Positions 14,130 to 20,671 of a DNA stretch of 64,000 nt are shown piece by piece. This DNA comes from Fodinicola acaciae. GTDB lineage: Bacteria; Actinomycetota; Actinomycetes; Mycobacteriales; HKI-0501. Where the stretch lies: positions 2,046,001 through 2,110,000 of the forward strand of contig NZ_WOTN01000002.1 in assembly GCF_010993745.1 (NCBI RefSeq), written 5' to 3'. Position 1 is the stretch's first letter, and each line of letters opens with the position of its first letter. The notes under the pieces were generated by a model. The model worked only from the letters and a program-made list of their open reading frames with translations, had not been told where the DNA came from and ran no database searches. The translations under genes and the position numbers were made by a program.

Positions 14130-14765
14130 AGGGCCTGTTTCAAGTCATAGCCACTCGTTGATGGTCGCTATGTGGACGGTTGCCTCGTAGCGAACGGCGA
14201 GTTTGTCATAGCGAGTGGCGACGGCGCGGTTGCGTTTGAGTCGGTTGATGCCGCATTCCGCCGCGTGACGTTGCTTGTAGATTTCGGGATCGAAGGCCGG
14301 AGCTGGGCCACCAGCGCGACCTTTGGCTTGGCGATGCCGGATCTGATCGACCTGTTCCGGAATTGTGCAGCGAATGCCGCGACCGAGGAGAGTCACCACG
14401 CTGACCTGCCGTGACGACCAGGGAGAGCGGTCTTTGTGCTTGCTCGGTGGCCAGATGCAACTTGGTTGTCCAGCCGCCTCGCGCCCCCCAGCGCGTGGTC
14501 ATCCGGTTCCGCTTCCCCCACCCTGACATCCCAGCTGATCAGCCCGGCGGCATCGGCATCGGCCTGCAACCGGCACAGGATGCCAGCCCAAACCCCGGCT
14601 CGTTGCCGACGGCGAAACAGTCCGTAGATCGCTCGCCATGACCCGTAAACCGGTGGAACGTCTCGCCACGGCACACCCCGCGCGCCCGCCACCGCTACGG
14701 TGGCCACGAGGTCTCCGGCACATCACGATCTTCTTCGTCGTTGATCGATCTACCGGAGACCTCAC
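14130..14765 (-). mobile_element. Decayed IS5-family element (frameshifted transposase)
   Basis: On the minus strand the pieces of an IS5-type transposase appear in three different frames. The first is a VPWRDVPPVYGSWRAIYGLF block near 14600-14670. The middle part encodes LISWDV. The C-terminal segment contains the third catalytic Glu in [20 protein letters not shown] at about 14180-14260. The right-hand terminus is visible as TAGGGCCTGTTTCAAGTCAT from about 14130. The N-terminal end of the gene is missing and several frameshifts separate the parts, so the element cannot produce a transposase. Its TAGGGCCTGT end resembles the terminal repeats of the 102-bp element at 25193. Confidence 0.75.
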
Positions 14766-15732: not shown

Positions 15733-16049
15733 CTCGCTGCCTCCCCGTCCCCGCTGCGCACCGCTCCTATTCTCTCGACGTTTGCGGACCCCATCCGGAC
15801 ACCGTCGTTATCCAATCGTTATGTGGACGAGAAGAGGGTGTGATCGCTGTCACATCGGCGCGCGATCAGTTTAGCGCTCAAATATGTTACTGGAAGCGTG
15901 AGCGGTTGGACCGCAATCGGTCAACTCTTCTGATGACTGTCATTGACTACGAGGAAAAATCGCGGCCTTCGGTAAGAAACCCTTGAACTTGGCGTGCGAG
16001 TTGTGCATGATGCCGGAATTGCCGACTCCGACTTTGTTGAGGGATTGTG
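15733..16049. other. Divergent intergenic region with one regulatory dyad
   Basis: These 317 bp separate the polysaccharide deacetylase from the fulvocin-like gene. Apart from the Crp-like dyad at 15839-15854 and a possible -35 element TTGAAC at 15983-15988 followed 17 bp later by CATGAT, I see no gene, repeat or structured RNA. Confidence 0.4.
15839..15854. promoter_or_regulatory. Crp/GlxR-like operator
   Basis: TGTGATCGCTGTCACA is a perfect TGTGA-N6-TCACA dyad, the consensus half-site pair of Crp-family regulators including actinobacterial GlxR/Cmr. It lies between the divergent deacetylase and fulvocin-like genes and could serve either one. The regulator itself is not encoded in the window. 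Confidence 0.5.
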
Positions 16050-17030
16050 ATGGCAGCTCGGTGGATGGTTGCTTTCGACGCGTCCTGCTCGACGTGCCGA
16101 GAGATTTCGCAGGCGGTGGAACGAGCGAGCGCCGGACGGCTCGAGGTCGTGCCGCTCGGTCGCGCCGACGTGACGGCCTGGCGCCAGCAGGCGCTCGGGC
16201 CGGACCCGGTGTGGGCTCCGACGCTCATCCGGCTCGACGAGGACGTACGTGCGTGGACCGGTCCGCGGATGGCGTTGCCGTTGGTGCGGCGCCTCGGACC
16301 ACGGGCGTCGATGCGCGTGCTGAGCGCGCTCGGAGAGCTGCGCCGGCCAGACAAGCCGTCGAAGAATTCGTTGACACGCGGCCAGTTCCTGCGGCTCGGC
16401 GGCGGCGCCGCGGTCGCCGCCGGTGTGCTGCTGACCAGCAGCTCGCCGGCTCTGGGCGCCGATCGGCAGCGGTCGCAGGCGCGCGAGTGGGTCGCCGCCA
16501 ATGCTGGAAAGCTGCCGCAGAGATACGACGAGGTGGTGGCGCACGCTCCGGCTTATCGGCGTGCCATCTACGAAGCGTCGTCTCCAGCCGTACGCAGCCA
16601 GCTGTGGGTCGAGCAGCTGACCAGACAGCGCGGCGCGCATCTGTCGGCGGCGCAGCGCGACCTGCTCGACAAGGTTTTGGCGCTGGCCACCGACGAGGCG
16701 ACGTTCAGCGACGACCCGGCCACCCGATCAGCCGCGCGGCCGCGGATCGACGCCCTGCGTGACACCGCGAAGCAGGTTTTCGAGCGCGACCAGGTGCATG
16801 CGATGTTCGTCTCGCTCGGACCGGCGCTCCAGCCGGGAGTGGTCGCGCCGGAGGCCTGCGATGTCTGCGAGTGCTCGACCGAGGACGACTGGTGTTCCAA
16901 GCCGGCGCGTTACTGCCGTGAGATCACCTGTTCGCGCGAATGCGACCAGCCACACGGCTGCCATTGCTTCAGTCTGTGCGGATTCCTTTACTCGTACGAG
17001 TGCAACGGCTATTGCGAGATCGTCACCTAA
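16050..17030 (+). CDS. Fulvocin C-related cysteine-rich protein with thioredoxin-like N-terminus
   Basis: This 326-residue protein has three parts. Residues 1-100 look like a thioredoxin-fold or DCC-type domain with a FDASCSTC motif (Cys-x-x-Cys) near the N-terminus. Around 108-135 a TRGQFLRLGGGAAVAAGVLL segment resembles a Tat-type or membrane-anchoring signal placed internally. After a helical region, the last ~56 residues hold twelve cysteines with spacings like those of the myxobacterial bacteriocin fulvocin C (CECSTEDDWC, later HGCHCFSLCGF and CNGYC). ATG at 16050 is chosen over GTG at 16047 because GAGGG precedes it at good distance. It may be a disulfide-rich peptide precursor with a built-in redox leader. 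Antimicrobial activity is inference only. Confidence 0.75.
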   Translation: MAARWMVAFDASCSTCREISQAVERASAGRLEVVPLGRADVTAWRQQALGPDPVWAPTLIRLDEDVRAWTGPRMALPLVRRLGPRASMRVLSALGELRRPDKPSKNSLTRGQFLRLGGGAAVAAGVLLTSSSPALGADRQRSQAREWVAANAGKLPQRYDEVVAHAPAYRRAIYEASSPAVRSQLWVEQLTRQRGAHLSAAQRDLLDKVLALATDEATFSDDPATRSAARPRIDALRDTAKQVFERDQVHAMFVSLGPALQPGVVAPEACDVCECSTEDDWCSKPARYCREITCSRECDQPHGCHCFSLCGFLYSYECNGYCEIVT

Positions 17031-18531: not shown

Positions 18532-19515
18532 ATGACGGATTTTCTCTACGTGGGGTCCTACGCCGGTGCCATCACCACGGTCACGCCCGGCCTCGGCGTC
18601 GTCGCGACGACGGAAAGCCCCGGATCGCCGTCGTTCCTGGCGATCCATCCGGCCGGCCACGCGCTCTATGCCATTGACGAGAGCGACGACGGCAGCGTGA
18701 CCGCTTTCCGGGCAAACGCCGACGGCACGCTGACAAAGCTCAACACCGAGCCGGCGGAAGGTTCGACGACCGCACACCTGACCGTCGATCCGTCCGGCAA
18801 ACATCTGTTGACCGTCAACTACGGCTCCGGCAGCGTCATCGTCCATCCGATCAACGACGACGGCAGTCTGGGCAAGCGTACGGATCTCGTGCGGCACCAA
18901 GGAGAAGGTCCGGACAAGTCACGGCAGGAGGGGCCACACGCCCACGTCGTACGTTTCGCGCCGAGCGGCGGCTACGCGTTGGTGGCCGACCTCGGCACCG
19001 ACGAGGTCGTCGCGTACGCGCTCGACGGTGGCCGGCTGGTCCGTCAAGCGGTTAACAACCTCCAGCCAGGAGTCGGTCCCCGGCACCTGGTTTTCGGCCG
19101 GGACAACAGGGTTTACCTGGTCGGCGAGCTCGACTCGACAATCCGCACCTATCGCGATGACAATGGTCAGCTGACCGAGCTGGACGCGCGGCCGGCGAGC
19201 AAGGAACAAAACGGCGTTCGCAACTATCCGTCCGAGATCGCGCTGTCCGATGACGGCCAGTTTTGCTATGTGGCCAACCGGGGTTACGACGTCATCTCCG
19301 CATTCGACGTGAGCACGGGCATTCCGCGGCCGCTCGCCGATGTGTCGATCGGTGGTGCCTGGCCGCGGCACCTGGCGACCGCGGCGGACCAGCTGTGGGT
19401 CGCCAACCAGAATTCCGACAACCTACGCCGATTCCAGTTGGACAGGTTCGGAATTCCACGGCAGACAGGAGAATCGCTGCAGCTCACCGCACCAGCCTGC
19501 ATAGTGCGAAAATAG
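18532..19515 (+). CDS. Lactonase family protein (7-bladed beta-propeller, cytosolic)
   Basis: The 327-residue product belongs to the Pgl/YbhE-type lactonase family, seen as repeated blade motifs such as LYAIDESDDGSVTAF, HLTVDPSGKHLLTVNYGSGS and YPSEIALSDDGQFCYVANRG. The family hydrolyses 6-phosphogluconolactone or related lactones. There is no signal peptide, so it acts in the cytosol. The downstream gene at 19607 encodes a clear paralogue with a Tat signal. There is no canonical ribosome binding site, because a perfect palindrome ends one base before the ATG, and translation may be leaderless. Whether it is the housekeeping phosphogluconolactonase cannot be told. Confidence 0.88.
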   Translation: MTDFLYVGSYAGAITTVTPGLGVVATTESPGSPSFLAIHPAGHALYAIDESDDGSVTAFRANADGTLTKLNTEPAEGSTTAHLTVDPSGKHLLTVNYGSGSVIVHPINDDGSLGKRTDLVRHQGEGPDKSRQEGPHAHVVRFAPSGGYALVADLGTDEVVAYALDGGRLVRQAVNNLQPGVGPRHLVFGRDNRVYLVGELDSTIRTYRDDNGQLTELDARPASKEQNGVRNYPSEIALSDDGQFCYVANRGYDVISAFDVSTGIPRPLADVSIGGAWPRHLATAADQLWVANQNSDNLRRFQLDRFGIPRQTGESLQLTAPACIVRK

Positions 19516-19606: not shown

Positions 19607-20671
19607 ATGACCGATCGCCGGGGTTTTCTGAAGTTGGCCGGAGCGACCGCGGCCACGGCCAGCGTCGGGTTGCCGACCGCCGCCGCGGCGAGCCGCGCGC
19701 CGCAGTGCCTGCTCTACATCGGCTCGTACGCGCACGCGATCACCACGGTCGGCAGCGAGGACCTCGGGACCGTCAGCGAGGCGACCGGCCTGGCCGCGCC
19801 GTCATATCTGGCCGACCACCCCAACGGCCGGTTCGTCTATGCCGTCGACGAGCAGGAAGCCGGCACGGTCACCGGATTTGCCAAGGGCCGCACCGGAAAG
19901 CTCAGCCAGCTCAACACCCAGCCGGTGAACGGCAAGGGCCCGGCGCAGTTGACCGTCGACCCGACCGGCCGATACGTGGTGACCGCCAACTACGGCTCTG
20001 GCAGCGTCTCGGTCAACCCGCTCAACGCCGACGGTACGGTCGGCGCGGTCACCGATGTCGTGCAGCACCAGGGCGCGTCGCCGCACGCGCACATGGTGCG
20101 ATTCGCGCCAAGCGGCCGGTTCGCGCTGGTCGCCGATCTGGGCACCGACGAGATTTTCGCTTACCAGCTGAGAAACGGCAAGCTGGTGCAGACCGCGGTG
20201 ACGAAGGTGCCGACCGGCACCGGTCCGCGGCACTTCCGGTTCGCGCCGCACGACACCGTCTATCTGGTCGGCGAGTCCGACTCCACCCTGCGTACGTACA
20301 CCTACGACCAGCGGACCGGCGCGCTCACCGAGCGAAACGTGCAGCCGGCGACCAAGGAGACCTACAGCGATCGCAACTATCCCTCGGAAATCGCGCTGTC
20401 GCCGGACAACGCGTTCGCCTACGTCGCAAACCGCGGCGGTGACGTGATCACCACCTTCGACGTGCGCGGCGCGACGCCGAAGGTGCTCGCCGACGTGAGC
20501 GTGCACGGCCACTGGCCGCGGCATTTCGCCGTGACCGGCAACCGCATCTGGGTCGCCAACCAACTTTCCAACAACCTGGTCGAATTCAGCCGCGATCCGC
20601 GCACCGGTCTGCCGACTTTCAGCACGCAGCGCGACCTGACGACGCCGTCGTTCGTCCTACCGGCCCGCTGA
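19607..20671 (+). CDS. Tat-exported lactonase family protein
   Basis: This 354-residue paralogue of the preceding gene shares most blade motifs (LTVDPTGRYVVTANYGSGSV, YPSEIALSPDNAFAYVANRG). It begins with a Tat signal, DRRGFLKLAG followed by an Ala-rich hydrophobic stretch and a likely cleavage site near AAAAS at about residue 30. It therefore folds in the cytosol and is exported, so it should act on an extracellular lactone or related substrate. GGGGAGAG lies before the ATG. It is 91 bp from the first copy. The end overlaps convergent otsB by 15 bp. Confidence 0.88.
   Translation: MTDRRGFLKLAGATAATASVGLPTAAAASRAPQCLLYIGSYAHAITTVGSEDLGTVSEATGLAAPSYLADHPNGRFVYAVDEQEAGTVTGFAKGRTGKLSQLNTQPVNGKGPAQLTVDPTGRYVVTANYGSGSVSVNPLNADGTVGAVTDVVQHQGASPHAHMVRFAPSGRFALVADLGTDEIFAYQLRNGKLVQTAVTKVPTGTGPRHFRFAPHDTVYLVGESDSTLRTYTYDQRTGALTERNVQPATKETYSDRNYPSEIALSPDNAFAYVANRGGDVITTFDVRGATPKVLADVSVHGHWPRHFAVTGNRIWVANQLSNNLVEFSRDPRTGLPTFSTQRDLTTPSFVLPAR

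Follow-up and report, generated by a model that had tools for sequence, protein, structure and literature searches.

A predicted fulvocin C-like peptide precursor with a thioredoxin-like front end in Fodinicola acaciae

Results

Layout of the precursor gene

The window analysed here is a stretch of 64,000 nucleotides from Fodinicola acaciae (contig NZ_WOTN01000002.1, positions 2,046,001 to 2,110,000). It contains a gene, with GAGGG directly upstream of its ATG at 16050, that is predicted to encode the precursor of a fulvocin C-like antibacterial peptide with a thioredoxin-like front end. As computed, the precursor has a four-part architecture (Table 1). An earlier note on this DNA, made from the sequence alone, had described a cysteine-rich peptide joined to a redox-type leader. 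This observation is confirmed below, and its reading as a disulfide-rich toxin that carries its own oxidoreductase-like leader is supported. Beyond what was noted then, the leader proved to be a module that the whole family shares, that can be exchanged and that is found on other cargoes too.

Table 1. Features of the precursor gene and its upstream region (window coordinates)
Feature	Position	Strand	Details and basis
Crp-like palindrome TGTGA-N6-TCACA, putative role	15839..15854	+	between the divergent deacetylase gene and the precursor gene
Whole precursor gene	16050..17030	+	encodes 326 residues; runs from the ATG through the stop codon
DCC-type thioredoxin-fold domain, N-terminal	16059..16343	+	residues 4-98; AlphaFold, Foldseek/VIA, weak PF04134 match, 36 relatives
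CxxC redox motif C13-S-T-C16 of DASCSTC	16086..16097	+	Cys pair invariant in 36/36
P57 of WAPTL, thioredoxin cis-proline position	16218..16220	+	invariant in 36/36
Internal Tat-like signal	16371..16457	+	about residues 108-137; conservation of R110, A134 and A/G136
Helical domain, putative prodomain or immunity domain	16458..16823	+	residues 137-258; pLDDT, part of NF033852
Variable linker, putative second cleavage region	16824..16856	+	residues 259-269; low pLDDT, length and sequence differ among relatives
Fulvocin C-like core, 12 Cys	16857..17027	+	residues 270-326; NF033852, eight family Cys and two extra pairs

The thioredoxin-like domain and the internal signal

The thioredoxin-like N-terminus that had been proposed around FDASCSTC (residues 9–16) was recovered as a fold. 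In an AlphaFold model of the window protein made with 31 family members (mean pLDDT 81), the thioredoxin-like domain (about residues 1–98) was modelled at a pLDDT of about 93 and the helical domain (about residues 137–258) mostly at 90–98 (about 95); the signal-bearing linker was disordered and the core was less certain. The model shows separate thioredoxin, helical and cysteine-rich parts, and not the one cytosolic metal-binding domain that would have spoken against the earlier reading. Structural matches of residues 1–88 in Foldseek/VIA were thioredoxin, PDI and GST-N folds only, with a moderate best Z of 5.7, and included a bacteriocin transport accessory protein (1zma, Z 3.9). The window protein shares with the Pfam DCC1-like family PF04134 the thioredoxin fold and the DxxCxxC motif (DASCSTC, residues 10–16), but its match to this family at residues 7–87 (15.3 bits, E 0.051) lies under the gathering cut-off of 27.8 bits. 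C13, C16, P57 and R110 were invariant in all 36 aligned proteins, and P57 lies in WAPTL, where thioredoxin has its cis-proline loop. These results support an N-terminal thioredoxin-fold domain with a CxxC motif and a cis-proline-like P57, which would probably be redox-active.

The internal Tat-like segment of the earlier note, which reads TRGQFLRLGGGAAVAAG...PALGA in the window copy, held up with one caveat. Nearly all relatives have the segment with an AxA site or a near variant of it, and kept F or L after position 111 as well as a mild hydrophobic stretch, which in the window protein has a best 17-mer hydropathy of 1.58, consistent with a moderately hydrophobic h-region. A134 was found in 33 of the 36 proteins and A or G at position 136 in 35; the window protein has A134 and G136. 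The caveat is the second arginine, as position 111 is occupied by K in 10 proteins, R in 9, A in 8, G in 5, S in 3 and Q in 1, which leaves RR in 9/36 only. The window protein has G here, and its motif, TRGQFL, contains the first arginine of the twin only and departs from RR-x-F-L. TatC is encoded in the window's genome. Because the second arginine is missing, use of the Tat pathway is uncertain, and the segment may, but does not certainly, function in a Tat-like way. From the sequence, signal peptidase is predicted to cut after residue 136.

The fulvocin C-like core

All of the twelve cysteines that had been counted in a fulvocin-like C-terminus of about 56 residues lie in residues 270–326 (at positions 270, 273, 275, 282, 289, 294, 298, 304, 306, 310, 318 and 322). 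The NCBIfam model NF033852 (‘bacteriocin fulvocin C-related’) matched residues 170–323 with 96.6 bits (E 2.5e-27) and was fully covered (model positions 1–150), so that the precursor passes the curated cut-off of 35 bits. The 150 positions of this model represent the helical and core parts only, with the redox leader outside it. The 45-residue sequence that we take to be that of fulvocin C scored 29.5 bits against model positions 108–148, i.e., the C-terminal core, and presumably has eight cysteines, like most family members. The window protein thus shares the helical and core parts with NF033852 and, presumably, the core with fulvocin C of Myxococcus fulvus, whereas its core has twelve cysteines and that of most members eight; the complete eight-cysteine framework is present, together with two extra pairs.

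The total of core cysteines was even in all 36 relatives (25 with 8, 4 with 10, 6 with 12 and 1 with 14), as is expected if every core cysteine sits in a disulfide. Stray cysteines outside the core vary freely. Seven of the eight family cysteines were invariant and Cys282 was nearly so. Outside the conserved cysteines and glycines, identity averaged 19% in the core, and it averaged 50% in the redox domain of the leader. A structure search of the PDB with the helical and core model yielded no clear match (best Z 3.8). By analogy with fulvocin C itself, and from the name of the family, the core may be expected to kill bacteria.

Genomic neighbourhood

No immunity, transporter or protease gene was a conserved neighbour at the Actinomycetes loci, nor was there a conserved maturation gene set. 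The gene that follows the precursor encodes a DHDPS-family lyase, which the earlier note had considered of little help; since this neighbour is not conserved in the relatives, an operon with it was rejected. The Crp-like site that had also been pointed out is a palindrome without mismatch, but over the whole window chance alone would give about one match if up to one mismatch is allowed, and Crp-like control was set aside as resting on a single chance-level site.

Two adjacent, related genes further downstream (18532–19515 and 19607–20671) resemble beta-propeller lactonases, judged from sequence only, and the second has a Tat signal (RRGFLKLAG). The small subunit of methylamine dehydrogenase is also exported by Tat and has twelve cysteines. 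As propeller-like genes lie downstream, we considered whether the precursor resembles this subunit, and rejected this since there was no sequence match in Pfam, NCBIfam or the PDB and the propeller-like genes are not conserved neighbours. On the other side of the precursor gene, overlapping short frames on the reverse strand (14145–14707) look like a broken transposase.

A constant leader with exchanged cores

The leader as a query retrieved 41 loci, most of which contained full-length relatives. These are mostly precursors of 300–330 residues with the same layout, and a few are cut or frameshifted. The genome of F. acaciae (8.86 Mb) encodes two paralogues that align over their full length, including the leader, with 41–42% identity, and ten Streptomyces plasmids carry full-length relatives. 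Outside Actinomycetota, the search for relatives covered plasmid records. Of four annotated plasmid records, three place the start of the gene too late, within the redox domain or beyond it (L013, 6391–6927; L014, 6256–6960; L017, 6355–6927), so that the public annotation misses the leader there. Several copies have a frameshift, have lost the Tat-like segment or have lost a cysteine (L034, L035, L038, L139, L143, L150 and L127; in the last four, the loss is of a cysteine or of the segment), which suggests frequent decay. In Actinomycetospora (L054, L057, L060–L065), a relative of the leader domain of about 110 residues stands alone, with neither signal nor cargo, in surroundings that are conserved across the genus.

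To avoid circularity, we then searched 393 genomes, taken as Streptomyces, with the core model alone, leaving the leader out, and looked for the leader with a profile built from the alignment of relatives. The core was found in 21 genomes at 27 loci, and each of these 27 loci has the leader in one open frame with the core. A redox leader on a fulvocin-like core is therefore the rule of this family and not a freak of the window.

Comparison of closely related genes revealed how the parts change. In a tandem pair of Streptomyces NBC_00012, the region that spans the Tat-like segment and the helical domain was identical (0 of 435 nucleotides differ), and 57 of the 132 core nucleotides differed (43%). 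A second tandem pair differed at 12% of the bases from leader to helical domain, compared with 36% of the core bases. S. misionensis and S. pyxinae showed the reverse pattern, with 39 of 43 core residues identical and the rest of the protein near 59%. The combination of a constant leader with divergent or swapped cores indicates that cores are exchanged as cassettes and diversify fast. Core diversity does not by itself prove that the peptides are toxins.

Other cargoes behind the same leader

Among 396 Actinomycetota genomes, the leader profile matched in 18, of which 15 belong to the family of Rubrobacter radiotolerans; the window's own genome is another. In the Rubrobacteraceae, the leader is fused to at least six C-terminal groups that have no detectable similarity to each other: two large cysteine-rich groups, L071/L078, the amphipathic, low-cysteine L087/L088, L091 and an M23 peptidase (Pfam E 7e-10). 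One of these genomes (G013) has four leader-carrying genes inside 20 kb. A broader leader profile found non-fulvocin, cysteine-rich cargoes in other Actinomycetes (L082, L141, L142, L144, L146 and L147), and the plasmid search found one leader-carrying, cysteine-rich protein in another phylum, in Thermomicrobium roseum. The cargoes beyond the fulvocin family include several cysteine-rich hydrophobic domains that contain no fulvocin part. The Rubrobacter cargoes matched none of the bacteriocin families in NCBIfam or Pfam, and a halocin C8-like identity was rejected for them, as the similarity is one of layout only and there is no family match.

Some of these genes have neighbours that may be related to maturation or immunity. 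Leader genes of Rubrobacteraceae (L016, 4974–6137; L094/L095/L099) adjoin genes of the Big_5 Ig-like and S8 subtilase types. Such neighbours were found at three Rubrobacteraceae loci, one of which (L095) shows only the subtilase prodomain in the stretch read. With the subtilase upstream of the leader-carrying gene of Thermomicrobium, subtilase-type neighbours occur at four loci in all, and the nearby subtilase is a candidate maturation protease. On the T. roseum plasmid, five small predicted membrane proteins follow the leader-carrying gene (L129, 3992–8028). These, and small predicted membrane proteins near leader-carrying genes of Rubrobacter, are candidates for an immunity function.

The range of cargoes bears on what the leader does. 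It could be a targeting or anchor module only, in which the thioredoxin fold docks a partner and chemistry is secondary, as its cargoes include proteins with and without many cysteines and one set of invariant residues is common to all. However, docking would hardly need a cysteine pair and a cis-proline-like proline that are invariant in 36/36 proteins, and most of the cargoes found are cysteine-rich, which makes a mere targeting role quite improbable. The cargoes also bear on whether the core is antibacterial at all. A secreted structural, metal-binding or signalling protein, rich in cysteines and resembling fulvocin C by chance, would agree with the lack of conserved immunity and transport genes nearby in Actinomycetes and with the uncertain fold and putative activity of the core. 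We consider this improbable, as it fits poorly with the match to a curated bacteriocin family, with cores that are hypervariable and swapped while the leader stays constant, with the even cysteine numbers of all members, which favour disulfides, and with an M23 peptidase that carries the same leader.

Discussion

A proposed one-chain route to a disulfide-rich peptide

The reading that we prefer, at a probability of roughly 55%, is a one-chain bacteriocin precursor in which a redox leader folds the core in cis, and which is exported by Tat and cut twice to give an antibacterial peptide. The thioredoxin-like domain would stay on the cytoplasmic side, where it would catalyse or proof-read the disulfides of the cysteine-rich peptide in the same chain. 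As the motif suggests, Tat would then pass the folded C-terminal part by way of the internal signal, and signal peptidase cleavage at the predicted site would leave the redox leader behind. A second protease would cleave the variable linker ahead of C270 and release a peptide of roughly 57–59 residues with six disulfides. If the cut fell before E268, the peptide (residues 268–326) would have a calculated average mass of about 6751 Da with its six disulfides. The helical segment may serve as a prodomain, so that the peptide is inactive until this release. The kinship with fulvocin C and the exchange and hypervariability of the cores suggest that the freed peptide would attack competing bacteria.

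The redox domain might instead serve self-protection, either by keeping the core reduced and harmless in the cell or by reducing peptide that re-enters, with the disulfides forming after export. As the domain is N-terminal to the signal, it is most likely cytoplasmic, and thioredoxin-like domains usually reduce in this compartment. Its invariant redox residues and the lack of a separate immunity gene conserved near the Actinomycetes genes also agree with such a role. However, Tat, if it is the route, favours folded cargo, and reduction of a toxin is less sensible for the low-cysteine cargoes that carry the leader (L087/L088 and the M23 peptidase). We consider self-protection unlikely as the main role, and return to a bacteriocin precursor that is folded in cis.

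Comparison with known systems

Thioredoxin-like thiol-disulfide oxidoreductases with a CxxC motif, such as PedC, BlpGst and BdbA, serve bacteriocins in trans (PMC4919988; PMC5465099). The pediocin PA-1, thermophilin and sublancin systems thus resemble the window protein in having a dedicated thioredoxin-like CxxC protein, but theirs is encoded by a separate gene, whereas the redox domain of the window protein belongs to the bacteriocin chain itself and precedes its export signal. An internal Tat signal is known from the Streptomyces Rieske protein, where it directs the C-terminal domain to export by Tat (PMC13186574). The N-terminal part of the Rieske protein is a polytopic membrane region, whereas that of the window protein is a soluble redox domain. 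The precursor of halocin C8 has a Tat signal, an N-terminal immunity part and a cysteine-rich C-terminal peptide. This archaeal protein resembles the window protein in layout, and we know of no redox leader in it. Among halocins, the active C-terminal fragment of the halocin C8 precursor is released by proteolysis (PMC12893001). As in polymorphic toxins, the same leader precedes unrelated C-termini in the window family and cores are swapped locally; unlike polymorphic toxins, which have an adjacent cognate immunity gene, the family has none conserved at its Actinomycetes loci.

We found no experiment on a relative with the leader–core architecture in the open-access literature, and no description of the combination of this leader, an internal Tat signal and a bacteriocin in open-access papers. 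Our results suggest a shared, undescribed way to fold and export cysteine-rich bacteriocin-like peptides. More broadly, and only tentatively, at not quite even odds, the DCC-type thioredoxin domain and the Tat-like signal may together be a leader common to a whole, so far undescribed class of antibacterial proteins that Actinomycetota and Thermomicrobium secrete. This leader would fold its disulfide-rich cargo in cis, ahead of export by Tat, and the cargoes swapped behind it would be fulvocin-like, of several cysteine-rich hydrophobic types, of an amphipathic type or an M23 peptidase.

If the proposed route is right, this family would contain bacteriocin precursors that carry their own disulfide catalyst in the chain and whose folded product is exported by way of an internal signal. 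Genome mining can also make use of the leader, as a search with it alone retrieves cysteine-rich bacteriocin-like proteins that neither Pfam nor NCBIfam names. With all parts in one gene, the production of a highly disulfide-bonded peptide for export would be directly testable.
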